40,827 nucleotides of DNA, taken from positions 1 through 40,827 of the forward strand of contig JAQTXJ010000015.1 of NCBI GenBank assembly GCA_028688815.1, written 5' to 3'. The stretch is from a bacterium (GTDB lineage Bacteria > Hydrothermota > UBA3073 > JACQXS01 > JAQTXJ01). Below, one piece after another: positions 5,501 through 21,121 of the stretch. The position numbers and the translations under genes were made by a program. Within the stretch, counting starts at the first letter, position 1; every line of letters begins with the position of its first letter. The notes beneath the pieces are model-generated. The model saw nothing but the letters and a program-made list of their open reading frames with translations, had not been told where the DNA came from and did no database searches.

Positions 5501-6023
5501 CTCCACGCTCAACTAAATTATTAAATTCCTCCGGGATATACCAACCTGCGAAAGAGGAATGCTTATTGTTAGCATAATATTTTGTATATAATTCGTGTAT
5601 TAATTCAATGTTTCTTTTAGCATAGTTATTAAGAGTGTCTGTCTCAAAATACTCGAATTTTCCTCTTTTCCACAAAGTCCCCATATAAACTTCCATTCCC
5701 ATACTATCACAAACAGATAGAATAGTGTCTAAAATATCTTTATTCCCGAGCTGAGTTATAGTATGAAATTGCGGGTCAGTAGGGTTGGGATAATATACAT
5801 ATATTGTGCTTGCATCTCCTAGTCCGTCTGAGAGCGCTGTCCATTGGATTATAAGTTTATTCATCCCAATATCTCGCATATAGGTGAATTCTTTTTTCCA
5901 TTCTTTTTTATTCCATTCCAATGTGCTTTCATTCTCACCAATCTGTAAAAAGGACCCCTCTATCGTTTTTGAATAAACGGGAGCGACAAGGAACAATGTC
6001 ATACACAATAGAATGTATTTCAT
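2523..6023 (-). CDS. Large secreted protein: DUF4434-like barrel, beta-helix, duplicated glycine-rich region, sorting domain
   Basis: 1166 residues with a signal peptide (1-18). Residues about 20-360 resemble the DUF4434 glycoside-hydrolase-like barrel: 'GSFLQIGE', 'MRDIGMNKLIIQWT' and 'GWYIPEEFNN', with E165/E166 a likely active-site acid. About 375-560 is beta-helix-like ('GTYNIIGDLVIDSGVTLTI', 'CEIRNAKYGLYANGGSVLAT'). About 590-805 and 855-1060 are two copies of a glycine-rich module; both hold 'GGGSGGS(I/V)LI' and 'GGGGAGGR(I/V)(Q/R)I'. About 1080-1166 is a Por/T9SS-type sorting domain ('LYQNYPNPF', 'LKLYDVTGRCVKTL', 'AGVYFAKF', ending KLVLMK). The ATG overlaps the stop of the upstream FG-GAP gene (ATGA), with GGGGAGG eight bases ahead. 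Probably a surface polysaccharide-active or adhesive protein; substrate unknown. Confidence 0.85.
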   Translation of the reverse strand: MKYILLCMTLFLVAPVYSKTIEGSFLQIGENESTLEWNKKEWKKEFTYMRDIGMNKLIIQWTALSDGLGDASTIYVYYPNPTDPQFHTITQLGNKDILDTILSVCDSMGMEVYMGTLWKRGKFEYFETDTLNNYAKRNIELIHELYTKYYANNKHSSFAGWYIPEEFNNLVERGERFKEIAQISRYWKVITDTCEALSGKPVIISPYFDTRIWSDDSTTIWYEDRNSFRCWVDSLVKLSGIDILAIQDGIGSGRFPLDTVPPYFQIMKEQCDAHNVIDTNKISFWTDIENFKTVGTNTFIPADIETVLAQRDTEAPYVEKMVCFEFNHYMSLQTPASYPSQDSAKKLATKLYNDYRRDFGFMGHIMDTTVWDSGTYNIIGDLVIDSGVTLTICPDVTVYSIPDQDTGKSGKDTTKCELIVKGNLIANSAVFTSAGLTDWFGIRIDTGGTAEFRGCEIRNAKYGLYANGGSVLATNNLITSDSVGVYVNSNTNLVNLGNLRNGSTNDDGMNSIYNNTWNLYNAANDSVFAQANYWGDTLKMTGKVIYNPPGYDYNHADWTIANDTTIYGTFWNVSTFKINSGKTAKVATRAVNTTGWIAISADSIDIQGTFDADSAGYLAGEGPGAGTQGASSYGAGGAGFGGRGGHGGNNLQGDTSKYGGYAYGNLENSFDMGSGGGNSDVTLWGKGGAGGGVIRLKCLGGLNVAGIIRSNGKDGTGSDGKVAGGGSGGSILIQTNRLSGTGTISSKGGNGANGSTPDGGGGAGGRIQILYNNSSFTGRVDVSGGNGPNNAIDGQPGTAFVKQTDNYVRLVLSPVNTITNTDDKSGFINGVEFTDKWIRLTSGDTITSNIELKATDSIIVNSSSYLLADEKGYCHNHGTGYGHTGSASHGGGGAGYGNSGGYGNYHTQGGIGDSGITYGDTLTPDSLGSGGGDWGTTNGYRWGGGSGGGMVKLICWDGTGKILLNGTISASGSNGITKTGYAAGGGSGGSVLIYAKQFLGNGTINAKGGNGGVISNAYGGGGAGGRVRIYSDSISFSVGNISVSGGTASGGATAGHTGTINQAPLPSSGGPQGKEMEAPLVFRLYQNYPNPFINKTTIKYSIPRTSFVSLKLYDVTGRCVKTLIAGERLPGYYREKLESKNYPAGVYFAKFKAGDYKETKKLVLMK

Positions 6024-7951: not shown

Positions 7952-10399
7952 ATGAATAAAACTATAAGGTTTTTGTTACTAATATGTTTTGGGATAGTAT
8001 TTGCAGGGAGCACCGTTTCCGAAAGGTCATTTTTTAACTCTAAAGAGAAGTTTAAGATTGCAAAGACCAACGGGATAGAAAACTCTTCTAAACTAAAGGG
8101 CGCAACCAAGGGAGAAATAGATACTATAACCCCGGAGTTAGCTTCGCCTTATTATATTTTTTCGTCGGAATACAGGAATTCTTATAAAGTAACGAAGTTT
8201 ACTCCGATGCTTCCTTGTTCCCTTCGGCAGATTTGGGTTGGCGCAGGAGGAAGCACGGCAGGGTCTAAGATATGCAGTATTTTTGTTTGGAGTGATGCAG
8301 GAACCGCTCCCGGGACGATATTGTTTAGCGACACTATGACTTTTGCGGCGGAATCCGCAGGTTATCTTTATTGGAACAGCCATACTTTACCGACTCCCAT
8401 AAGAATGGCGGGTTCTTTTTGGGTAGGCAGCAAAGAAAACGATACTTTGTTTCCAACCACAGGGTTTGATGAAACTATGAGTTTGCCTTCGCAATTTAGT
8501 TTTAACGGCAGCAGTTGGGTAGCGGGCGATTCTATTACATTTGATTATATGAACGCGGTAGCCGTAAAATACGAACTAAGCGGAACGGCTGATATAAGCG
8601 CTTCACCATCCCCACTTGTGATGCAAATAGCGGCTATTGCCAAAAAGTCGCTGCCACAACCTCCCGTATCGCCGTTATCCTTGCTTAGCGAAGATGACGA
8701 AAAATACTGGCAAGATATAGTTCCCGGGGAATTCATAATCGGTTATAATAATCAAATAGACGTCAAAAAAGCGACCTTAAAACAGATGGGCATAGCACAA
8801 AAAAGTGTAACTTTGGCAGATAAGGAACTCGGAGATAACTTTATACTTGTTAAAGTAGCGGGCACGCTTGAAGAGGAAAAAGCATTCATAAAAGCAATGA
8901 AAGTAAAATCAAATGTTTCATCAATAGAGCCAAATAGGATAATGAAACTTTTCAAAAACCCGAACGATCCTTATTTTTCTTCATACCAGTGGGACAAGAG
9001 AAACGTTAATGCGCCGGGGGCGTGGGCTTATGGTTGGGGAAATGACAGTATATCAATCGGTATAGTTGATCAGGGCACGCAATATACGCATCCCGATTTG
9101 AGTGCAAGATATGGTACAGTTAAGGGGTATGACTACGTGGACGGCGATGCTGACCCCATAAATGCGGTTGCCGCAGAGGCTCACGGAACGCATTGTTCCG
9201 GCAATGCGGCTGCAACGGTTAACAATGGAGTAGGAATTGCAGGAATGGCAAACGCAAGGCTTTATTCATTAAGAGTAATGAGTTCTACCGGTGGAGGTAC
9301 AACTACGGCAATTGGAAACGGAATACAATGGTGCACAAGTAATGGCGTAAAAATAATATCTATGAGTATTGGGGGCGGTGGTCCTTCAACTTTTGTTAAC
9401 TCAAAATGTCAGGCATTCTGGAATGGGGGCGGGCTAATATTTGCGGCAAGCGGAAATGATGGGAGAGATACTACCATATACCCCGCGGCTTATGCGAATG
9501 TAATTGCGGTTGGGTCAACAGGCACAACTAATAAACGGTCTTCTTTTAGTGATTACGGGAATTATTTAGACCTTGTTGCTCCGGGTGAAAATATTTGTTC
9601 AACCATCCCCGGGAGCACTTATGAGGCTGGATGGAGCGGCACGTCTATGGCGTGTCCACAGGCTGCAGGAGGCGCCGCACTTGTGTGGGCAGCAAAAACA
9701 TCTTTAACGAATTCACAAATAAGGGACATTTTACTTAATACTGCAACTGACCTTGGAACTACGGGTTGGGACAAAGAATATGGCTGGGGGAAGATTAATC
9801 TACAGGCTGCCGTTATTGCGGCAAAAGGGGCTTCCGCTATGACCGGCGATACGGGAATACTTACGGTTTATAATTCGCCTTCTACTTCGGGAAATTTAGC
9901 CGTTTCCGACATTACATACCACTCATCATGGATTAGCTCTGTGAGCCCAACGAGTTTCGGACTCGTTCCCGGAAATTCTGCAGGAGTTACCGTTATTGTA
10001 TTGGCGAGCCTTGAAACAGGCTATTATTACGATACTTTATTTATTGCTTCAAATGACCCGGATAACAATCCGTATCTCGTACCTGTGGTTTTAAAAGTGG
10101 GTGATGTCGGGATGGAAGAGAACTCGGATTTTGGATTGCGTAATGCGGATTTAGGCGTCTTTCCGAACCCGACTACAAAAGCGTTATCCGTAAAATTTGC
10201 CATTTCTGCTTCCCAGAATGTTAGTTTGAAGATTTATGATGCTGCAGGACGAATGGTAAAAACGGTTTTCGACGAAGTTAAAAAAGCAGGTTCATATAAC
10301 CCGACAGTAAATATGACGGGAATGAATTCCGGTATTTATTTTGTTTTGTTAAAAACGGGAAATCATACGATATCTAAAAAAGTAACTCTGATTAAATAG
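7952..10399 (+). CDS. Secreted subtilisin-like serine protease (S8) with sorting domain
   Basis: 815 residues, strong AAGGAGG ribosome site, signal peptide 1-19. Residues about 60-215 form a beta-rich N-terminal domain. About 255-335 look like an inhibitor-I9-type propeptide ('PGEFIIGYN', 'SSIEPNRIMKL'). The S8 catalytic domain spans about 350-625 with D373 ('GIVDQGTQYTHPDL'), H411 ('EAHGTHCSGNA'), oxyanion N502 ('ASGNDG') and S565 ('SGTSMACPQAAG'), so the triad is complete. An immunoglobulin-like linker follows, then a Por/T9SS-type sorting domain from about 735 ('VFPNPTTKALSVKF', 'LKIYDAAGRMVKTV', 'NSGIYFVLLKTG', ending KKVTLIK). It is a likely exported, surface-anchored or released endopeptidase for protein scavenging. 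It converges with the AlkD gene, with only 24 bases between. Confidence 0.93.
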   Translation: MNKTIRFLLLICFGIVFAGSTVSERSFFNSKEKFKIAKTNGIENSSKLKGATKGEIDTITPELASPYYIFSSEYRNSYKVTKFTPMLPCSLRQIWVGAGGSTAGSKICSIFVWSDAGTAPGTILFSDTMTFAAESAGYLYWNSHTLPTPIRMAGSFWVGSKENDTLFPTTGFDETMSLPSQFSFNGSSWVAGDSITFDYMNAVAVKYELSGTADISASPSPLVMQIAAIAKKSLPQPPVSPLSLLSEDDEKYWQDIVPGEFIIGYNNQIDVKKATLKQMGIAQKSVTLADKELGDNFILVKVAGTLEEEKAFIKAMKVKSNVSSIEPNRIMKLFKNPNDPYFSSYQWDKRNVNAPGAWAYGWGNDSISIGIVDQGTQYTHPDLSARYGTVKGYDYVDGDADPINAVAAEAHGTHCSGNAAATVNNGVGIAGMANARLYSLRVMSSTGGGTTTAIGNGIQWCTSNGVKIISMSIGGGGPSTFVNSKCQAFWNGGGLIFAASGNDGRDTTIYPAAYANVIAVGSTGTTNKRSSFSDYGNYLDLVAPGENICSTIPGSTYEAGWSGTSMACPQAAGGAALVWAAKTSLTNSQIRDILLNTATDLGTTGWDKEYGWGKINLQAAVIAAKGASAMTGDTGILTVYNSPSTSGNLAVSDITYHSSWISSVSPTSFGLVPGNSAGVTVIVLASLETGYYYDTLFIASNDPDNNPYLVPVVLKVGDVGMEENSDFGLRNADLGVFPNPTTKALSVKFAISASQNVSLKIYDAAGRMVKTVFDEVKKAGSYNPTVNMTGMNSGIYFVLLKTGNHTISKKVTLIK

Positions 10400-11940: not shown

Positions 11941-12792
11941 ATGTATAGAAAACTTGTTCAGTTCGGAACTTTCTTATTAACAAACAGCAATTTCCATAAG
12001 ACTATTTACCAGGGAAAAACAAAACAGTTATGTATCCCCGGGCTTCATTGTTACGCCTGTCCTCTGACCAGAGTGTCCTGTCCTATGGGTTCATTCCAGC
12101 ATTTTATCGGGATGAAACAATTCCCGTTATACGTTTTTGGATTTATCGGAACGCTTGGAGTTGTATGGGGAAGACTGGCTTGCGGGTTCTTTTGTCCGTT
12201 CGGGTTAGTCCAGGAACTTTTATACAAAATAAAAACCTACAAGATAAAACTCGCAAAAGTATTTAACTACGGGAAGTATGTGGTACTGTTCGGCGTTGCG
12301 ATTATAGTCGTATGGATAACCGGAGACCCGTGGTTTTGTAAAATCTGCCCGTCGGGGATTCTTGCCGGGGGCATACCACAAGTGTTAATCGACAAGGAAT
12401 TAAGACCTCTTCTCGGATGGCTGTTTTATATGAAATATACGATTATTTTACTGGTAATAATAGGGTCAATATTCATTAAAAGGGTATTCTGCAGAACTAT
12501 GTGTCCGCTTGGAGCAATGTGGGGATTGTTTAATAAAGTTAGTTTTATGAAGCTTGCAGTAGATAAAGATAAATGTATTCAGTGCGGTATGTGTGAAAAA
12601 GTTTGTCCTACGGATGTTAAAATGTATGAAGCGGTAGATAACCCGGGAGTAGCAAATACGCCGGAATGCGTAAGATGTTTTAGCTGCAAATCCGTATGCC
12701 CGATGAATGCGATAAAGGTTAACGCCACCGGCACTTGTACCCACACTGAAGACAACGTTTCGCCTCAGCAATCGCCAACTCCTGCGAACTAA
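11941..12792 (+). CDS. NapH/CcoG-like membrane 4Fe-4S ferredoxin
   Basis: 283 residues from the ATG at 11941; an in-frame TTG at 11926 is possible but lies within a palindrome. An N-terminal cysteine cluster ('CIPGLHCYACPLTRVSCP') is followed by three membrane stretches. Each has a C-x3-CP motif at its edge: 'CGFFCPFG', 'CKICPSG' and 'CRTMCPLG'. The C-terminus is a two-cluster ferredoxin: 'CIQCGMCEKVCP' and 'CVRCFSCKSVCP'. This matches NapH/NosR/CcoG-like membrane proteins that pass electrons across or along the membrane. Upstream lies the CxxC small protein. The last 74 bases overlap the GltD-like gene on the opposite strand. Electron donor and acceptor are not identifiable; the neighbouring flavoprotein and CcdA-type protein are candidate partners. 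Confidence 0.85.
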   Translation: MYRKLVQFGTFLLTNSNFHKTIYQGKTKQLCIPGLHCYACPLTRVSCPMGSFQHFIGMKQFPLYVFGFIGTLGVVWGRLACGFFCPFGLVQELLYKIKTYKIKLAKVFNYGKYVVLFGVAIIVVWITGDPWFCKICPSGILAGGIPQVLIDKELRPLLGWLFYMKYTIILLVIIGSIFIKRVFCRTMCPLGAMWGLFNKVSFMKLAVDKDKCIQCGMCEKVCPTDVKMYEAVDNPGVANTPECVRCFSCKSVCPMNAIKVNATGTCTHTEDNVSPQQSPTPAN

Positions 12793-14422
12793 CCTGTTCA
12801 ACTTCTTTGAAGTTTTTCCTATCCTTAATTAGCGTTAAATCAATTCTCTTTTTCTCGCCCGGATTTTTTTGAGTCCATGCCGCATCGGGTAAATTAGCTG
12901 GAGTATAAGTTTCAACGAAACTTAACATTTCTTCCAGTTTGGCTTTGAATCCACGCAAATATATGTCAATTTCTTTTGCGCCTCTTTTGCCCATTACTAT
13001 AGCTTCTATGGCTATACGGGGTCCCGTAACAAAATCTCCACCTGCAAATACATTAGGAAGCGGCGTCTTTGAGCTTACGTTGTGAATATCTTTTGTCCTG
13101 TTGTTCGGGATTTGAATTTTATCCGCAAAGGAAGCTTCTCTTGTTTGTCCGATAGCGATAATTATGTTATCACAATCAATGGTCATAGTCGTTTTTTCAT
13201 CAAACACGGGTTTGAAATTACCTTTCTTATCAAAGACGGAAGTACATTTTTTAAACTCAACTTCTGTCACTTTCCCGTCTTTTTCTATTATTTTTTTAGG
13301 CCCCCAGCCGTTGTTAATTTTGATTCCTTCGTCCAGACTTTCTTCTACTTCCGGAGGGCAGGCGGGCATCTCTTTCCGGGACTCAAGGCATATTAAATTA
13401 ACTTCTTTTGCGTTTAATCTGAAGGCGGTTCTTGCTGCATCAATGGCAACGTTTCCTCCTCCGATTACGAGAGTTTTTTTATTAGCAAAAGATTCGAATC
13501 CGGTAGGATTGCTTGGTTTTGTTGCTTTTAAGAAATCTATCCCGTAATAAACTCCCGATAAGTTTTCTCCTTCTATGTTAAGTTTTTGGGCAATACCCGT
13601 CCCCGTAGCTATAAAGACGGCGTCGAAATCTTTTGTTATCGTATCGAAAGAAACCTGACTGCCGTCAGGCAAGTCATCTTTCCCGACTTCTGTTCCCGAT
13701 TTTATTGTAATACCGGAATCTTCAATTAGTTCTGTTTCCTGCAAAAGGACATCTTTTGGCAGTCTGTATTCAGGGATGGAAATTCTCAGCATCCCACCCA
13801 TTTCTTTTTCTTTTTCAAAAATCGTAACGGCGTATCCTTTTTTTCTTAGCTCGTAAGCGCAGGTAAGTCCTGCCGGTCCGCCGCCGATTACGGCAACTTT
13901 TTTAGATTGTAGATTTTGATCTTTGACCTTTAAGATAGGAGTAATGCGAACGCTGGTGCTTGCATACTCGCTAATGGCTCTTTTAAGGCGTCTTATTGCG
14001 AGTGGGCTTTCAATGCCTTTTCGCGAACATTTCGCTTCGCAGGGAGCAGGACATATCCTGCCGAGTGTCCCAACAAAAGGAGTCACATTGGCAATAACTT
14101 TATATGCGTCGTCGAATTTATTATTGGCTAAAAGCGAGACATATTCCGATACTCTAACATGTGCAGGGCACCCGTCTTCGCAAGGAGAAGAAAGATAAAA
14201 AGGACCTTTATATGCGTCTATTATATTGGCAACCCAGATTATAAACCATGCGAATAGAATTCCAATAAACCAGGGGTTGAAACCTGTCCATATCATTTTG
14301 AAAAACCATATTGACAGGAAAAATAACAGGAAGATAAAAATTCCTGCGCCCCATCTTTTTCTGTATAATTGACCTAATCCCGGAATAATAGAAAGTACAC
14401 CTGCGATTAATCTTTTTTTCAT
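12719..14422 (-). CDS. GltD-like FAD/NAD(P) oxidoreductase with N-terminal membrane domain
   Basis: 567 residues from the ATG at 14422, chosen because it forms an ATGA overlap with the upstream stop and has GGGGG seven bases ahead; the ORF is open to 14452. Residues 1-70 hold a TM2-like motif ('SIIPGLGQLYRKRWGAGI') and two hydrophobic helices. About 78-160 are the GltD-type cysteine-rich domain (C81, C85, C124, C128, C132: 'CEDGCPAHVRV', 'ICPAPCEAKC'). Then come an FAD motif ('VIGGGPAGLTCAYEL'), an NAD(P) motif ('VIGGGNVAIDAARTA') and 'FAGGDFVTGP'. The end, 'AIAEAKRCLQCGYKC', carries the family's terminal CxxC. No glutamate-synthase large subunit is nearby, so it is more likely a membrane-bound NAD(P)H:acceptor oxidoreductase feeding the neighbouring redox proteins. 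Confidence 0.87.
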   Translation of the reverse strand: MKKRLIAGVLSIIPGLGQLYRKRWGAGIFIFLLFFLSIWFFKMIWTGFNPWFIGILFAWFIIWVANIIDAYKGPFYLSSPCEDGCPAHVRVSEYVSLLANNKFDDAYKVIANVTPFVGTLGRICPAPCEAKCSRKGIESPLAIRRLKRAISEYASTSVRITPILKVKDQNLQSKKVAVIGGGPAGLTCAYELRKKGYAVTIFEKEKEMGGMLRISIPEYRLPKDVLLQETELIEDSGITIKSGTEVGKDDLPDGSQVSFDTITKDFDAVFIATGTGIAQKLNIEGENLSGVYYGIDFLKATKPSNPTGFESFANKKTLVIGGGNVAIDAARTAFRLNAKEVNLICLESRKEMPACPPEVEESLDEGIKINNGWGPKKIIEKDGKVTEVEFKKCTSVFDKKGNFKPVFDEKTTMTIDCDNIIIAIGQTREASFADKIQIPNNRTKDIHNVSSKTPLPNVFAGGDFVTGPRIAIEAIVMGKRGAKEIDIYLRGFKAKLEEMLSFVETYTPANLPDAAWTQKNPGEKKRIDLTLIKDRKNFKEVEQVSSQELAIAEAKRCLQCGYKCRWR

Positions 14423-15498
14423 TTCCATACCCCCGCTATTTTTTTGCCACAAAATTTACATTTACCGTTAACCATTATATCGTTTTCCATTACATAATAT
14501 CCTTTACGTTTTATTACTATTCTTCTACAACTCGGGCAATAAGTATTTTCGGATGCGTTCCCCGGTATGTTTCCTATGTATACGTATTTTAATCCTGCTT
14601 TTTGGGCTATCTTGCAAGCTCGTTCAAGTGTCGTTACGGGTGTAGGCGGAAGGTCTTTTAATTTATACATAGGCCAGAATCTTGAAAAATGTAAAGGGAC
14701 ATCGGCACCCAAACTATCGCGTATCCATTGGCACATTTTTCTTATGTTTGCGGAATCGTCATTTTTTGTCGGGACGATAAGGTTCGTTATTTCAAGCCAT
14801 ACCCCTTCTCTTTTTAGTATTTTCAAACTCTGTAAAACCGGCGCCAAACTACCCAAACACATTTCCTGGTAATATTCTTCCGTGAATCCTTTTAAGTCTA
14901 TATTGGCGGCATCGAGATATTTACATAGCTCTTTTAATGGTTCGGGGTTGATATATCCCGATGAATGCATTGTCGTTTTAAGTCCTGCTTTGTGAGCAAG
15001 TTGAACGATGTCAAACATATACTCGTAAAAGATGGTAGGTTCGGAGTAAGTAAAAGCAAGCGAAAGACAGCCATTTTCTTTTGCGGATTTTACGATTTCG
15101 TCCGGCTGCATAGGAATGTTAAGAGTATGTTCGGGCAGGGATTGAGAAATATCCCAGTTCTGGCAGAACTTGCATTTCAAGTTACAACCCGCAGTTGCAA
15201 TTGAGAAAGCCGTGCTGCCGGGAAGGAAATGGAACAATGGTTTCTTTTCTATAGGGTCTATATTTACTGCGCAGGGCATCCCATAAACCATAGTGAATAG
15301 TTTGCCATCCTTGTTTTCCCTGACTCCGCAGATTCCTCTTTGAGCGGGATTAATTATGCAACGCCTTGGACATAAGTTGCATTGAACTGATTTTTTGTCA
15401 AGTGCTTCCCAGTATTTTGCAGGGTAAGGGGTAAGTTTAGTTTCCTCGGCAAAGAGTAAAGAAATAGATACCAGAGATAAAACCACAAACAAAAACAT
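14419..15498 (-). CDS. amrS: AmrS-type radical SAM enzyme with N-terminal signal/anchor
   Basis: 359 residues from the ATG at 15498. The ORF is open to 15546, but its first 16 residues are encoded by an inserted repeat. Start uncertain: AAGG touches the 15498 ATG. Residues 1-18 are a hydrophobic signal or anchor (MFLFVVLSLVSISLLFAEE). It fits the radical SAM member of the AmmeMemoRadiSam system: 'CNLCPRRC' and 'RGICGVREN', the cluster motif C105-x3-C109-x2-C112 ('CNLKCKFCQNW'), 'AFTYSEPTIFYEY', and a C-terminal zinc-like 'CPSCRRIVIKRKGY' with 'CKFCGKKIAGVW'. No AMMECR1 or Memo gene lies nearby. The reaction is unknown for the family. An export signal on a radical SAM enzyme is odd, since the cluster needs reducing conditions. 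It overlaps the next gene by ATGA. Confidence 0.85.
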   Translation of the reverse strand: MFLFVVLSLVSISLLFAEETKLTPYPAKYWEALDKKSVQCNLCPRRCIINPAQRGICGVRENKDGKLFTMVYGMPCAVNIDPIEKKPLFHFLPGSTAFSIATAGCNLKCKFCQNWDISQSLPEHTLNIPMQPDEIVKSAKENGCLSLAFTYSEPTIFYEYMFDIVQLAHKAGLKTTMHSSGYINPEPLKELCKYLDAANIDLKGFTEEYYQEMCLGSLAPVLQSLKILKREGVWLEITNLIVPTKNDDSANIRKMCQWIRDSLGADVPLHFSRFWPMYKLKDLPPTPVTTLERACKIAQKAGLKYVYIGNIPGNASENTYCPSCRRIVIKRKGYYVMENDIMVNGKCKFCGKKIAGVWK

Positions 15499-16017: not shown

Positions 16018-17235
16018 TTATTTCAGTATTAACATCAAAGCGCAGAGTGCAAACAAAACAATAGCAGTTGCAAGTTTTACGGGAGCCAGATTTTTATTCA
16101 TTAAAGCGCCGAGTCTTTTGGAACTCATTCCCCAGTAAACGAATATAAATATAAAAACCAGTGGCGTAACAAAAAGTAAATTATATATCAAAAGATAAAA
16201 AATGGCTTTTACTTTTAATGCTGGCACACCAATAATATATGTTATGGTAGGAAGGTATACCTGTCCTGTGCAAATAGTTTCCAGAATTGATATGATGACT
16301 CCCACGACAAAAGCAGTCGCATATAAAATAGCGGGATGTCGTTCAATACTTAGTTTATCTCTGATCATAAAATGAATTGTCTTTTTTATGTAATCGGGTA
16401 ATTGGAGCGCCATATCCGTTGCCCTGCCTTTTCTGCACAACCAATAATCGTATAAGTTTATACATCCTATTATGAAAGCAAAGACCGCGATGGCGTAATA
16501 TATTATTTTTGACAAAAGGATAAAACCTTCCATATGTATTGCGAGTCTAAGCAATCCGATTCCTATAAGAAAATAAGTAATGAATACGGCTAAAGTAAAA
16601 GACAACCCGCACCAAAGTATATTTTTTCGTTTGTATTCTACATAAGCCAGATAGGATATTAAAAATATAAGCGTAGCAAATGCGCAGGGGTTTATGCTGT
16701 CAACAAGACCGGCGGCGATTATGGAAAAGATGGAGAATTTTTTAAACCTGTCTATAATGCTGTGCTTTGCATCAACGGGTGTTTGTATCAAATCGGATGG
16801 TTCCGCAGGAGACTTCCATGATTTTTTTTGTTCTATAACTTCGTTTAATTCCAATTCTTTTACGATTTCTATAAAGAAGGTATCGGCAAGGAATAAAGCA
16901 GGCGTAACCAGTATTAGTTTTTCCGGCACTTTATATTTTTTTGACAGTGTTTCATACAAAAGAATGCTCTGGGAGTCGGCAATGTTAAATCTTTTTATTT
17001 CCAAATCTTTATATTTTTCTGAGATTCTTTTTAACGTATGTTCCACTCTTGAACATTCTGAACAACCGGTTTTGTAGAAATAAACAATCACCGCCGAGGC
17101 GGGATGTCCCACCACCGCTCCGCCTGAGTCGGTCGCTAAGTGTTTTGTAGAGGAGGGAGTAATTTTAGATTCTTGGGCAGAAAGTAAAGAAAGAGTAGCA
17201 AAACACAACAAAATAAAAATATATTTGCTTTTCAT
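16018..17235 (-). CDS. Thioredoxin-like/CcdA (DsbD-type) fusion protein
   Basis: 405 residues from the ATG at 17235 (ATGA overlap with the upstream selenoprotein gene; the ORF is open to 17259). Signal peptide 1-20. Residues about 48-135 are a thioredoxin-like domain with C58-S-E-C61 in 'YFYKTGCSECSRVE'. About 170-405 are a CcdA/DsbD six-helix-type membrane domain with C184 ('DSINPCAFATLIF') and C322 ('ETICTGQVYLPTI'), the cysteine pair that carries reducing equivalents across the membrane. It likely reduces periplasmic thiol partners using cytoplasmic thioredoxin. Residues about 31-46 come from an in-frame palindromic repeat. Its linker ('SIIDRFKKF') and last helix ('AIVLFALCALMLILK') recur in the upstream gene, implying tandem duplication. 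Confidence 0.9.
   Translation of the reverse strand: MKSKYIFILLCFATLSLLSAQESKITPSSTKHLATDSGGAVVGHPASAVIVYFYKTGCSECSRVEHTLKRISEKYKDLEIKRFNIADSQSILLYETLSKKYKVPEKLILVTPALFLADTFFIEIVKELELNEVIEQKKSWKSPAEPSDLIQTPVDAKHSIIDRFKKFSIFSIIAAGLVDSINPCAFATLIFLISYLAYVEYKRKNILWCGLSFTLAVFITYFLIGIGLLRLAIHMEGFILLSKIIYYAIAVFAFIIGCINLYDYWLCRKGRATDMALQLPDYIKKTIHFMIRDKLSIERHPAILYATAFVVGVIISILETICTGQVYLPTITYIIGVPALKVKAIFYLLIYNLLFVTPLVFIFIFVYWGMSSKRLGALMNKNLAPVKLATAIVLFALCALMLILK
17091..17132. repeat. In-frame palindromic repeat cluster
   Basis: CCGCCGAGGCGGG (17091-17103), GGGATGTCCC (17101-17110) and CCGCCTGAGTCGG (17120-17132) crowd into 42 bases, equal to 14 codons. They lie between the signal peptide and thioredoxin domain of the CcdA fusion gene and leave the frame open. 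Related cores occur at 6246-6264 and 33821-33835. Confidence 0.7.
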
Positions 17236-17927
17236 TTTAATACTATTATCAAAGCACAAATTACAAACAACACAATTGCGATTATTATTATAGAAGCAGC
17301 CGGAAATTTTTTAAATCTTTCTATTATGCTAAATTTTTTATGGGCAGGCTTTTGTATTGAATTACTTGATTTGGTTACCTTGCCGATTGGCAGGTATGTT
17401 TTTTTAATAACTGATGTATCGGCAGTGTTTGTTAAACTTTCAGGAACTTGTTTTTGAGTTGTTACGGAATCAACTGCTTTTGATTTTTTATTTTGAAATG
17501 TTTTTTTTATGTTAGTGTCCTGACTGCTGTTAGGCTTTCCCTTTTGGTAGACAGGCAAGTTATCAGAACTTGTATCCTTGATTGTGCTGTCCTGAGGAGT
17601 GTTTGCCATCAACGAATCCCAGTTCATTGATTTTATTTCGTCTTTGCCGATGAGTGGTATATTTTTCGTCAGGGTGTTATTTATTTTTTCGTGTATAATC
17701 ATCCCGGGCCAGTCTTTTACGTATATATTGTAATCTTTTTCTATTGTATTGAGGTAGTCCATTCCTGCGTCTGTATCTACGTTATAGGGAGTTACTTTTA
17801 TGTGATGTTTTTCCTCTAGTTTGGGCAGGATATTCATCACTACCCACTGGCATTTTGGTCAGCCGGGGGAATGGAAAAAGTCTATGCCGGTAATTGAGAG
17901 GAACAAAAAATATAAGGGTAGCAACAT
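17232..17927 (-). CDS. Thioredoxin-like selenoprotein (Sec at in-frame TGA 17859-17861)
   Basis: Read from the ATG at 17927 through one in-frame TGA, the protein is 231 residues; reading only downstream gives a headless ORF starting at a GTG (17840). Residues 1-18 are hydrophobic (signal or anchor). The TGA is codon 23 in 'FFHSPG-U-P-K-C-QWV', the first position of a thioredoxin CxxC motif. A fold-like continuation follows ('ILPKLEEKHHIKVTPYNVD', then 'WPGMII' where the cis-Pro loop belongs, then 'LIGKDEI'). Residues about 90-195 are a polar linker. The end has 'SIIERFKKF' and a membrane helix 'AIVLFVICALIIVLK', both matching the downstream thioredoxin-CcdA paralogue, which has Cys at the Sec position. 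A SECIS-like hairpin follows the TGA. TGA is an ordinary stop elsewhere in the window. No selA/B/C/D is present here. A point mutation or sequencing error is the alternative. Confidence 0.8.
17823..17861 (-). promoter_or_regulatory. Putative bacterial SECIS element
   Basis: Starting 14 bases after the UGA (17861-17859), GGGUAG (17845-17840) pairs with CUGCCC (17828-17823), including one U-G pair. A single U (17839) is bulged. GAU (17838-17836) pairs with AUC (17831-17829), and the loop is GAAU (17835-17832). E. coli fdhF has the same plan: stem, bulged U, 3 bp, and a G-starting four-base loop bound by SelB. The loop G is 24 bases past the UGA, within the range known for bacterial SECIS elements. 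Confidence 0.75.
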
Positions 17928-18166: not shown

Positions 18167-21121
18167 TTACTTCATTAAAATCAATTTCCCCGTAACTTTT
18201 GAATTTCCGGTTTTCAGACGCACAAAATAAATACCGTTTGATAATTTTTCGGTATCTAGTTTTATGTTATACGTTCCTGCTTTTTGTTCTCCGTTAACAA
18301 GCGTTTTAACCTGTCTGCCGCTTAAATCATAAAGTTCCACAGATACCTTATTATTAAACGGTATCTGGTAACTTATAATCGTTGACCTTACAACCGGGTT
18401 TGGATAAGCTTTTACATTTACGGACACGTTATAATCTGACGTACTCGTTTCCGAAACTCCTTGTGTTGATACGGTCAAAATCACAGGTTCTTTATATGTA
18501 CCTTCATCAGGGTCGTTTGACGTGATTCTCAAAGTATCCAGATAAATACCTTCCGCAAGTCCTGCCGGCTGTACGCTCACCAAAACGGAAGACGATTCCC
18601 CCGGTGCAAGAGTCATAGTTGTTTTTGACAAGTCAGCAATCCACGGCGCCGTATAAGTTATATTTGATACTGAAAGACTGGTCGGTAGTCCGCCCCTGTT
18701 GCACACCCATATTGTTCCATCTTGAGTAGCCGGAGCAGTAACACCAAAATGAGCCAAAGCCGGGTCCCCATAAAGATTGAATGCCATGCAATTAACCCAT
18801 TTATTCTGCGCTGCTCCCGTTCCCCCCATATAATTTTGACGGCCAAGGTCAAATGCAGGTCCTACTTTTGCATGTGAGACGCTAGTATCTTTAAGCAACT
18901 TATTGAAAAAATATTTTTCCATAACATTTGCAGGATTTGTATAAACAGACCTGCTTGCCGCGCATACGCTGACACATCCCTGGTTCAATAATGCTGCTCC
19001 CAAATTATTTGTTGTCTCGGGATGTCCTAATAAACAGGACATAAGAAAAGCATCCGCGGGATAATTATCATCCAACGCAGAAACATCCGAAGTTGATAGT
19101 ATTTGAGGATATACAATTTCACCGTTACTTTCCGGGACGCCATTACCATTGTCCGTTGCCCATACCATACGACCACAGTCTTGAAGCCACCCGTGCGAGT
19201 TTAAAGCAAAAATCCCCATTCCATCCCAACGGTTTTTTATGTTTACTTTTGTCAAACTGTCCGTACACGAATAAGTGCTCTTTGTTCTTCCCTGTTTTTC
19301 ATATAATAATGTAGCAGTTGAACGATTAATAATACTGCTGTTCATAATATCTTCAAGTACGGAAGCCCCGTCAAGAAGAGCTCCTCCGCCACCATCCTGA
19401 TTGGAAAACTGCAACATCGCACCCGCGCAAAGCGCTTTTGTCTTATATGCGGCATCGGTATTTCCCTCGAAATCTATGATTTTTTGAGTTATATGCGCAA
19501 TCTTTGTGGCGTCACTCCACGGAATTCTTCCAACATATACTTCCCCGACATAATCAGGGGAATCATTTCCTCCCGTGCCCCCGGAAGAACTCAAAATTTC
19601 TCCCCAGTAACTGTCCCCGTCTTTATTCCAGGAACTGGCATCGGCAGTTCCAAGGTCAGAGTAATACAAATCAGTAGCAATAGGATAATCGTAAGCATCT
19701 ATTGCCCAACTTGGTAAAGCAGTGTTACTCTGGATATAACAAATTCGCATCGGAATATTCGCATTATCCCCTACTATTAACACATACTTTATCCCCCATT
19801 GACCTACGGGATATTTTTCTCTTAAAAAATTCCTTATCTTCTGCTGGATATCAACCCCGGTACAAGCACTATTTATAGAATCTTTTGTTACTATGGTTAC
19901 TTTATAACCTAACGCCGATTTCCATGTTGCAAGTGCTGCACAAGCCGATCGCATCGCAGCCGTAGTTATAATTACGTAATCATACGTCGGTGCTTTCGGT
20001 TCTCCCTTATAGGTATACCACTCCTTAGCCTGTTCAAAATTGTAAATAAACCCCATCGCTTCCTCTTCCGCAAGGTTATCCGATGCCAATCTCTTATATT
20101 CTGCTTCTTTATCCGCATCGAATCTGTATTTCACTTTAACCTGTAAATTAGATACATAAGTTAATTGCCCGGTTACTGCATTATATTGCACAGGATAAAC
20201 CGCTACTGTTACAAGGTTGTATTTTCTTAAATTCCCGGTAGACACTAATTCTCCTTTTACTGCAGGATATTGTGTGTTTGATGAATAAACAGCTTGTTTA
20301 TTATTATTATATTCTTCATAGCAACTAGCAATCTTACTTTTATCATCTCTCATAGGAAAAACAACCGGTGCCGGAGCAATGTTATACTTGCCTGTGAGAG
20401 GAACGCTGTTTCCTATTACTTCTACCCCTTCAACCGTTCCTTGCGGTGGGATTGCAAGAATTATAGTCTTGAACGGTAATGCCGGCTTACCGGGCTCGCC
20501 CGTTTTATCAAACCCTTTTATATCTATATTATGAACGCCTGCGCTTATTTCTTTTATATCGAAAGCAGGAACATCTACATCAACGGTTACTTCATTTGAT
20601 GTCCACGAACAGCTCATATATTTATATTCAGGCATATGATAATAATATGATAACTTATCCGGAGTTACATCTATATCTGGCGCTCCTCCTTGCGCCCAAT
20701 AATAACTATGTGTATATTCGTTATCTGCTTCCGAAGATTCCGTGATAGCCCCAAGTGGGTCAACAACGAGTTTCATTGTATTGGCTCCCACAACAGAAAC
20801 TGTGCTTTGTAAAAATTTCACCTTCAAAGTACTTCCGGCAGCAAGCGAAGGGAAGGTATACGATTTAATAACTGAATCCTCTCGCATTATCTTGACATCA
20901 AAGCTGGAAGTAACGTTCTGGTCACCATTATTGGTAACAGCCCAGCTATAATAGTATGGAGTCCCAGTATATAAAGTATCATCCAGAACCGTATCCTGGG
21001 TAACGGAACAAACTAACGGAGCGCTCCACCCGGTTAAAGCAACAGGAGTAAGATTAGGCAGAGCAAAGAGTTTCGCTGAAAATAAAAATATACCAAATAT
21101 CAAAAATTTAATTTTATTCAT
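18167..21121 (-). CDS. Gingipain-like cysteine protease (peptidase C25) with sorting domain
   Basis: 984 residues, AGGAGGAG ribosome site, signal peptide 1-20. Residues about 22-142 are a CARDB-like domain ('YYYSWAVTNNGDQNV', 'DPLGAITESSEADNEY'). About 175-370 resemble the C25 propeptide. The C25 catalytic domain runs about 378-792: 'YDYVIITTAAM', 'KYVLIVGDNANIP', 'YVGRIPWSD', catalytic H643 ('ALNSHGWLQDCG') and C696 ('AFLMSCLLGHPE'), closing with the typical 'YGDPALAHFG'. An immunoglobulin-like segment and a Por/T9SS-type sorting domain end the protein ('AYPNPVVRSTIISY', 'VELYDLSGRQVKTL', 'NGIYFVRLKTG', KLILMK). It is a likely secreted endopeptidase; cleavage specificity cannot be told from sequence. 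Confidence 0.93.
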   Translation of the reverse strand: MNKIKFLIFGIFLFSAKLFALPNLTPVALTGWSAPLVCSVTQDTVLDDTLYTGTPYYYSWAVTNNGDQNVTSSFDVKIMREDSVIKSYTFPSLAAGSTLKVKFLQSTVSVVGANTMKLVVDPLGAITESSEADNEYTHSYYWAQGGAPDIDVTPDKLSYYYHMPEYKYMSCSWTSNEVTVDVDVPAFDIKEISAGVHNIDIKGFDKTGEPGKPALPFKTIILAIPPQGTVEGVEVIGNSVPLTGKYNIAPAPVVFPMRDDKSKIASCYEEYNNNKQAVYSSNTQYPAVKGELVSTGNLRKYNLVTVAVYPVQYNAVTGQLTYVSNLQVKVKYRFDADKEAEYKRLASDNLAEEEAMGFIYNFEQAKEWYTYKGEPKAPTYDYVIITTAAMRSACAALATWKSALGYKVTIVTKDSINSACTGVDIQQKIRNFLREKYPVGQWGIKYVLIVGDNANIPMRICYIQSNTALPSWAIDAYDYPIATDLYYSDLGTADASSWNKDGDSYWGEILSSSGGTGGNDSPDYVGEVYVGRIPWSDATKIAHITQKIIDFEGNTDAAYKTKALCAGAMLQFSNQDGGGGALLDGASVLEDIMNSSIINRSTATLLYEKQGRTKSTYSCTDSLTKVNIKNRWDGMGIFALNSHGWLQDCGRMVWATDNGNGVPESNGEIVYPQILSTSDVSALDDNYPADAFLMSCLLGHPETTNNLGAALLNQGCVSVCAASRSVYTNPANVMEKYFFNKLLKDTSVSHAKVGPAFDLGRQNYMGGTGAAQNKWVNCMAFNLYGDPALAHFGVTAPATQDGTIWVCNRGGLPTSLSVSNITYTAPWIADLSKTTMTLAPGESSSVLVSVQPAGLAEGIYLDTLRITSNDPDEGTYKEPVILTVSTQGVSETSTSDYNVSVNVKAYPNPVVRSTIISYQIPFNNKVSVELYDLSGRQVKTLVNGEQKAGTYNIKLDTEKLSNGIYFVRLKTGNSKVTGKLILMK

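Follow-up and report, generated by a model that had tools for sequence, protein, structure and literature searches.

A putative UxxC selenoprotein in a Hydrothermota bacterium, split off from the N-terminus of a Trx1-Trx2-membrane protein

Does an in-frame TGA at the active site of a thioredoxin-like gene in a Hydrothermota bacterium encode selenocysteine (Sec), and to what kind of protein does that site belong? The gene, ORF1, lies on the minus strand of a 40,827-nucleotide stretch of DNA (the window), which is contig C48 of a 2.67-Mb draft assembly in 157 contigs (92.26% complete). In an ORF list made with the standard stops it is represented only by a headless GTG ORF (17232..17840, 202 residues) devoid of the active site. 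Translation through the TGA bears out what an earlier note on this DNA had described between 17927 and 17232 on the minus strand, namely an ATG, a hydrophobic leader, the segment FFHSPG, an in-frame TGA, and then P-K-C, as well as the 208-codon open frame and the 231-residue read-through product. The Sec-containing coding sequence, as delimited by this translation and by homology on both sides of the TGA, spans 17235..17927 on the minus strand, with its ATG (codon 1) at 17927-17925 and its own stop TGA at 17232-17234. It is comprised of a short hydrophobic leader of about 14 residues (17886..17927), a thioredoxin-fold domain, Trx1 (approximately residues 10-108; 17604..17900), a polar, low-confidence linker (17328..17603; pLDDT blocks of 38-53 across residues 111-200), and a C-terminal membrane helix (approximately residues 210-230; 17238..17300) recognized both from a helix at 210-230 in the structural model and from similarity to the end of the downstream gene, ORF2 (all on the minus strand). 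The ATG is shared with a congeneric genome, and a 1-nt gap 5' of it favors this start. Codon 23 (TGA, 17859..17861, minus strand) is the proposed Sec of U-P-K-C and Cys26 (TGC, 17850..17852, minus strand) its second active-site residue, so that in the context FFHSPG-U-PKC the TGA occupies the first position of a CxxC-like site.

At the stop frequency of the same strand, 208 open codons after the TGA have a chance probability of 2.8e-5. A read-through scan of the window (at least 10 codons before the TGA, at least 40 after it, and under 60 nt of overlap with other ORFs) returned five candidates, in which the frame continues past the TGA for 69, 41, 48, 45, and 208 codons. The longest of them is ORF1, which has a Cys three residues past the TGA. 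Wholesale recoding of TGA, deemed unlikely in the earlier note, is rejected, since 8 of 28 hand-picked gene-like ORFs in the window terminate at TGA, including ORF1 itself and the genes at 6020 and 14419.

The AlphaFold2 model of the 231-residue protein (alignment A4) has a mean pLDDT of 71.1 and a pTM of 0.51, with Trx1 reaching a pLDDT of 93-97 over residues 21-80 and 95 over residues 91-100. Thioredoxins predominate among the Foldseek matches to this model, 25 of which have an E of up to 0.001 (best E 1.8e-4), and the model predicts a thioredoxin fold with the UxxC motif at the first helix and P74 as the invariant proline. In alignment A6, both P74 and the Cys aligned with Cys26 are present in 33/33 rows.

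The only other genome of the genus returned by searches is that of bacterium isolate STD1_36 (JAQUPX010000001.1; hereafter G001), in which one uninterrupted gene, 530 codons long when counted from the conserved ATG (534 from an upstream ATG), encodes Trx1 (UPKC), the linker, a second thioredoxin domain, Trx2 (CSEC), and a membrane domain. Here, too, TGA stands at the same codon, on a 953,578-base contig, and 57 identical nucleotides surround it in both genomes. The Trx1 regions of the two copies align without gaps and the locus shows 87% nucleotide identity over 338 bases. Between the window and G001, codons 24-108 have a dN of 0.103 and a dS of 0.484 (dN/dS ~0.21), pointing to purifying selection downstream of the TGA, and codons 1-22 have a dN of 0.02 and a dS of 0.33. 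Synonymous changes affect 1/17 degenerate codons near the TGA as against 16/66 elsewhere, a lower but not significantly different proportion (p = 0.084).

For a wider comparison, we studied the best 80 of 582 confirmed hits. Fifty of these 80 named loci aligned at the Trx1 site (49 with Cys, one with TGA) and 30 did not align there. Eight of the 50 (ORFs of 356-375 residues), in which one codon matched both the Trx1 and the Trx2 sites, were dropped; they remain rows of A4, the alignment behind the 231-residue model, and are absent from A6. In the resulting 42 two-thioredoxin loci, which are titled from many phyla and each have the order Trx1-Trx2-membrane within one ORF, codon 23 is TGC in 30, TGT in 11, and TGA in one, which is that of G001; hence the codons at this position are 41 Cys and one TGA, and the random codons that the earlier note had named as counter-evidence are absent from these loci. 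Both Trx2 cysteines and both membrane cysteines occur in 80/80 named loci, the latter partly by construction, as the locus-scan patterns contained the two membrane cysteines. A profile search across the phylum matched 59/147 genomes, with TGA-containing rows from the window's own genome (G000), G001, and G024; in the last the TGA is an ordinary stop at the far end of the frame and the active site reads ECPHC. The site as read in the best 30 loci of this search displays two Cys motifs in 28, one in two, and a stop in none, and the remaining rows contain no internal stops. The TGA form thus appears to be confined to two genomes, both of one genus (2/2 genus genomes). In ORF1, the sequence is accordingly conserved as coding both before and after the in-frame TGA, and homologs have Cys at the equivalent site, which is the combination by which we recognize a selenoprotein.

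The genome also encodes most of the Sec machinery. SelB (372.9 bits in a profile search against a cut-off of 242.25) and tRNA-Sec (70.3 bits against a gathering threshold of 47; a tRNA-SeC with anticodon tca according to ARAGORN) are both encoded on contig C118, and selA (518.4 bits) runs off the end of contig C2, with its last part at the end of C118; the two contig ends overlap across some 246 bases and differ at one or more of them. Thus, three of the four components that the earlier note had proposed to seek were recovered, and the fourth, selD, was not found over its cut-off in the draft assembly (best score 57.1 bits). G001 possesses selD (397 bits; read through, an in-frame TGA in this gene gives GGGUAAK), selB (372.6 bits), selA (578.7 bits), and tRNA-Sec. 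In G001, selD is flanked (C3:42561-46490) by a gene that we take to be PurM-like and by an Omp28-like gene, the product of which has a UxxC site and a T9SS-type tail. Since the PurM-like neighbor is likewise missing from the window's genome (26% match at best), and an Omp28-like gene on contig C31 (9387-10325 of 10329) is truncated at its 5' end where the contig stops, the absence of selD from the draft is likely an assembly gap. SelA scores over its cut-off in 20/60 relatives searched (own genome counted), and a search of the window's genome for formate dehydrogenase found none. The Sec genes, the Cys or TGA at codon 23 of the homologs, and the gap-free Trx1 alignment support the central proposal of the earlier note, a UxxC thioredoxin-fold selenoprotein: codon 23 very probably specifies an active-site Sec in a thioredoxin attached to the membrane.

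Further TGA genes came from a search of the window's genome with the G001 Omp28-like protein. Of 246 candidates, 150 were scored; most of these cover the sorting tail, and six loci cover the thioredoxin part, each with one TGA that corresponds to the U of UxxC. These lie on contigs C31 (two), C153, C53, C45, and C29, with two in tandem at a contig end. All TGA genes found by these searches in the window's genome are UxxC thioredoxin-like.

Downstream of the UGA of ORF1, folding yields a SECIS-like hairpin (17822..17846, minus strand) of 10 bp with one bulge and the apical loop GAAU at 17832-17835, 23 nt past the UGA. The bSECIS rules, as given in the accessible text of PMC13188914, are a loop of 3-9 nt, a stem of 4-16 bp, a G in the first two loop bases, a spacing of 16-37 nt, and an MFE of at most -7.5 kcal/mol. 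The hairpin conforms to these in both the window and G001 (loop GAAU, 10 bp, spacing 23, stem -11.5 kcal/mol), as scored by a script that tried seven segment lengths, kept the best, and left the upper stem limit unapplied. The segment 17820-17861 has an MFE of -12.3 kcal/mol and a z of -3.29, and 17812-17864 a z of -2.13; 17800-17862 adopts another fold with a weaker z of -1.89, and a longer G001 segment has a z of -1.07. As 33/1068 TGA triplets of the window (~3%) pass the same test, it is supportive rather than proof; further, the hairpin regions are identical in the window and G001, leaving no base-pair covariation to compare. Three of the genome's own six Omp28-like TGAs pass (one at -13.1 kcal/mol with the loop GGTC), which exceeds the ~3% background for genes that are related and not independent; the other three and the G001 Omp28-like TGA fail, and the G001 selD TGA passes narrowly at -7.6. 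An Rfam search of the window found a tRNA and nothing else. The hairpin is a candidate SECIS element that supports Sec decoding.

ORF2 (16018..17235, minus strand; ATG at 17235 preferred to TTG at 17259) codes for a leader, Trx2 with the motif C-S-E-C, and a DsbD/CcdA-like membrane domain, and its start ATG shares bases with the stop TGA of ORF1 in an ATGA overlap (17232..17235, minus strand). It is 92.9% identical in nucleotide sequence to the second part of the fused G001 gene over 1077 columns. A PDDEXK_3 gene comes next after ORF2 in the window and a similar-looking gene, as judged by eye, also comes next in G001. ORF2 had been described in the earlier note as a paralog with G-C-S-E-C; the gene is real, and it mainly carries the other domains (Trx2 and the membrane part) of the fused relatives. 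Likewise, the leader, UxxC fold, linker, and helix listed as a novel free-standing layout are all seen, but they are not those of a separate family: a stand-alone family is rejected given the fused form in G001, and ORF1 appears to derive from the N-terminal domain, now separated, of a Trx1-Trx2-membrane (DsbD/CcdA-like) protein that is widespread.

The weakest part of this assignment is the DsbD/CcdA-like nature of the membrane domain. At E 0.01 the membrane part matches PF13386 (DsbD_2) in 4/32 members and PF02683 (DsbD_TM) in 1/32. The 50 matches listed by Foldseek for the 530-residue G001 model include thioredoxin-type structures, none under E 0.001, and no DsbD/CcdA. We take the cysteine motifs NPCAFA and CTGQ to mark the domain as DsbD/CcdA-like. 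The matches for the 32 members (alignment A5) include no Pfam or NCBIfam model that spans the whole Trx1-Trx2-membrane family.

We propose that the SelA/SelB/tRNA-Sec system decodes the codon-23 TGA as Sec, aided by the downstream hairpin, to yield a membrane-attached thioredoxin-fold domain with the active site U-P-K-C. Cytoplasmic reducing power would then pass to the membrane domain (the NPCAFA and CTGQ cysteines), from there to Trx2 (CSEC), and finally to Trx1 (UPKC), the selenol of which would reduce exported partners, possibly the Omp28-like UxxC proteins of the same genome. We infer this electron route, the extracytoplasmic location, and the substrates from the domain architecture and, on balance, we lean toward the relay from the membrane domain via Trx2 to Trx1, with ORF1 likely to function as an exported thiol/selenol reductase fed via its membrane partner. 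Signal-like leaders, noted by eye at the beginning of some relatives, suggest that the thioredoxin domains face outward. A possible, if less favored, reading leaves the Sec decoding untouched and contests just this mechanism: Trx1 might be an oxidase, an isomerase, or a metal- or metalloid-handling domain rather than the reductase end of a relay. Weak matches to the ArsG arsenical permease model in 25/32 family members of A5 (best E 5.1e-9) and the faint profile similarity of Trx1 to DsbA-like proteins and to copper-resistance proteins speak for such a role; however, the two proteins for which an ArsG score was read (~31 bits) fall far below the 200-bit cut-off, and the Trx2 and membrane Cys pairs seen in all 80 loci of the best 80 of 582, the membrane pair partly by construction, fit relay chemistry.

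The ATGA overlap additionally suggests that translation of ORF2 may depend on the TGA being read. Given that the Sec codon lies 22 codons into ORF1, that the two genes overlap, and that the sister species has a single frame, one might speculate, rather tentatively, that selenium gates the membrane electron line, whose Sec end would serve the exported UxxC Omp28-like proteins: without selenium, ribosomes would halt at codon 23 and the membrane partner would hardly be made, and with selenium the line would be built.

How the gene came to be split can be partly traced within ORF1, in which Trx1 and the linker are followed by a piece resembling the stretch before the first membrane helix and then by one resembling the last membrane helix. 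At nucleotide level, the C-terminal helix resembles the final part of ORF2 (46 nt, 76%, E 5.7e-5); the region just before it matches the ORF2 stretch that precedes the first membrane helix (26 nt, 88%, E 5.7e-5). Because the same nucleotide comparison also gives a non-collinear 19-nt match (E 6.9e-4), the assignment of these pieces as remnants draws on their E-values, their order, and their frame together; the C-terminal helix is probably what is left of the membrane domain's last helix. Since outgroups have the fused form, the gene was probably split in the window's lineage, with the sister species keeping the fusion, and a tandem duplication with complementary deletions would be its simplest account. 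A different kind of break is observed in G005, a genome of the same order, where a Trx1-Trx2-membrane ORF (L042:8589-9674) hits a TAG inside the membrane domain, the rest lying in another frame further on, and selA occurs in two abutting pieces; both breaks are possibly assembly errors.

The split raises a further reading, viz., that the TGA is a true stop and ORF1 a pseudogene decaying after the fused protein was broken up. ORF1 resembles a partial duplicate from which Trx2 and the bulk of the membrane domain are gone, and its linker aligns poorly with that of G001, both of which are in line with such decay. Nevertheless, we consider it very improbable: the same TGA occurs within the otherwise open fused gene of G001 and is hence likely older than the split, the dN/dS over codons 24-108 is low, the frame stays open up to a stop overlapping the next start, and the genome has Sec machinery along with other TGA-UxxC genes. 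Sec decoding of the TGA together with the origin of ORF1 as a detached domain of a Trx1-Trx2-membrane protein is, taken as one claim, an account in which we place high confidence.

Still less credible is a regulatory TGA that ends a 22-codon leader, with a second protein initiated from an internal GTG or ATG. The ORF list does contain a GTG ORF from 17840, but its shortened product would lack the first strand and the active site of the fold, and the codons before the TGA align in frame with those of the Cys-containing homologs that read straight through, including the first strand. Least credible of all is that sequencing or assembly turned a TGC or TGT into this TGA, which is conceivable in a fragmented draft of 157 contigs, but countered by the same TGA on the long contig of G001, a second genome 87% identical at this locus, and by six more TGA-UxxC genes in the genome.

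Sec decoding thus being the preferred reading, we compared the ORF1 product with known selenoproteins. Among NCBIfam models, TIGR02187 (PDO_seleno_TRX), NF053656 (redoxin_TUGYCR), and NF041212 (Uxx_star) describe thioredoxin/glutaredoxin-like proteins with named Sec forms, the first containing a tandem pair of such units. None of the three matches the window protein or the G001 protein at E up to 1, and weak matches occur in 4, 3, and 1 of 32 members, respectively (best E 0.0012, 0.00088, and 0.0075). The Omp28-related selenoprotein (NF045500) is also a UxxC thioredoxin-like protein, but of a different family: the window protein is unmatched by it at E up to 1, and the G001 Omp28-like protein, which carries a T9SS-type tail and lacks a DsbD match, reaches 71.5 bits where the cut-off of the model is 200. 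The DsbD/CcdA reductases (PF02683, PF13386) resemble the present family in joining a membrane electron carrier to thioredoxin domains; a Sec form of these was not found in our literature search, and their Pfam models reach E 0.01 in just the few members enumerated above. Thioredoxin UxxC selenoproteins (PF00085; Table 1 of PMC13188914) share the thioredoxin fold and Sec at the first active-site position, whereas the ORF1 product is membrane-attached and has a membrane partner gene; PF00085 leaves the 231-residue protein unmatched and, in the G001 protein, aligns with Trx2. TsoB (NF045694), a rhodanese/DsbD fusion-like selenoprotein, is similarly named for a DsbD-like part, but has UxxxxU with two Sec (PMC13188914, Table 1) as against UxxC in ORF1; its model leaves the window and G001 proteins unmatched at E up to 1 and matches 1/32 members at E 0.0064. 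The 2026 catalog in PMC13188914 counts 119 prokaryotic selenoprotein families and subfamilies, and its Table 1 does not name a tandem thioredoxin with a membrane domain, with TsoB being the nearest by name; in the accessible text, CcdA and 'cytochrome c biogenesis' occur 0 times and DsbD once. In a literature search, judged mostly from listings, we recognized no report of a Trx1-Trx2-membrane selenoprotein. UxxC thioredoxin-fold selenoproteins are already well known as a kind, and the Sec form of the Trx1-Trx2-membrane protein is one not named in the catalog's Table 1.

The locus would add a selenoprotein group overlooked by standard gene calling and would associate Sec with a thioredoxin system coupled to the membrane instead of with a soluble enzyme. 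It would also place a Cys/Sec exchange within one genus (2/2 genomes) of a widespread family and provide a case of a fused Sec gene that was split while the Sec codon persisted. The same phylum includes records titled WOR-3 and Stahlbacteria, and a literature search yielded a single paper in which both 'WOR-3' and 'selenocysteine' occur. Elsewhere in the window, the minus-strand gene run 3' of the Sec gene includes a pyridine nucleotide-disulfide oxidoreductase with a Fer4_20 domain (12719-14452, minus strand). Two further genes (18167-21121, minus strand; 7952-10399, plus strand) code for proteins of the peptidase C25 and subtilase types that carry T9SS sorting domains at their C-termini, and T9SS-type tails are very numerous in this genome.
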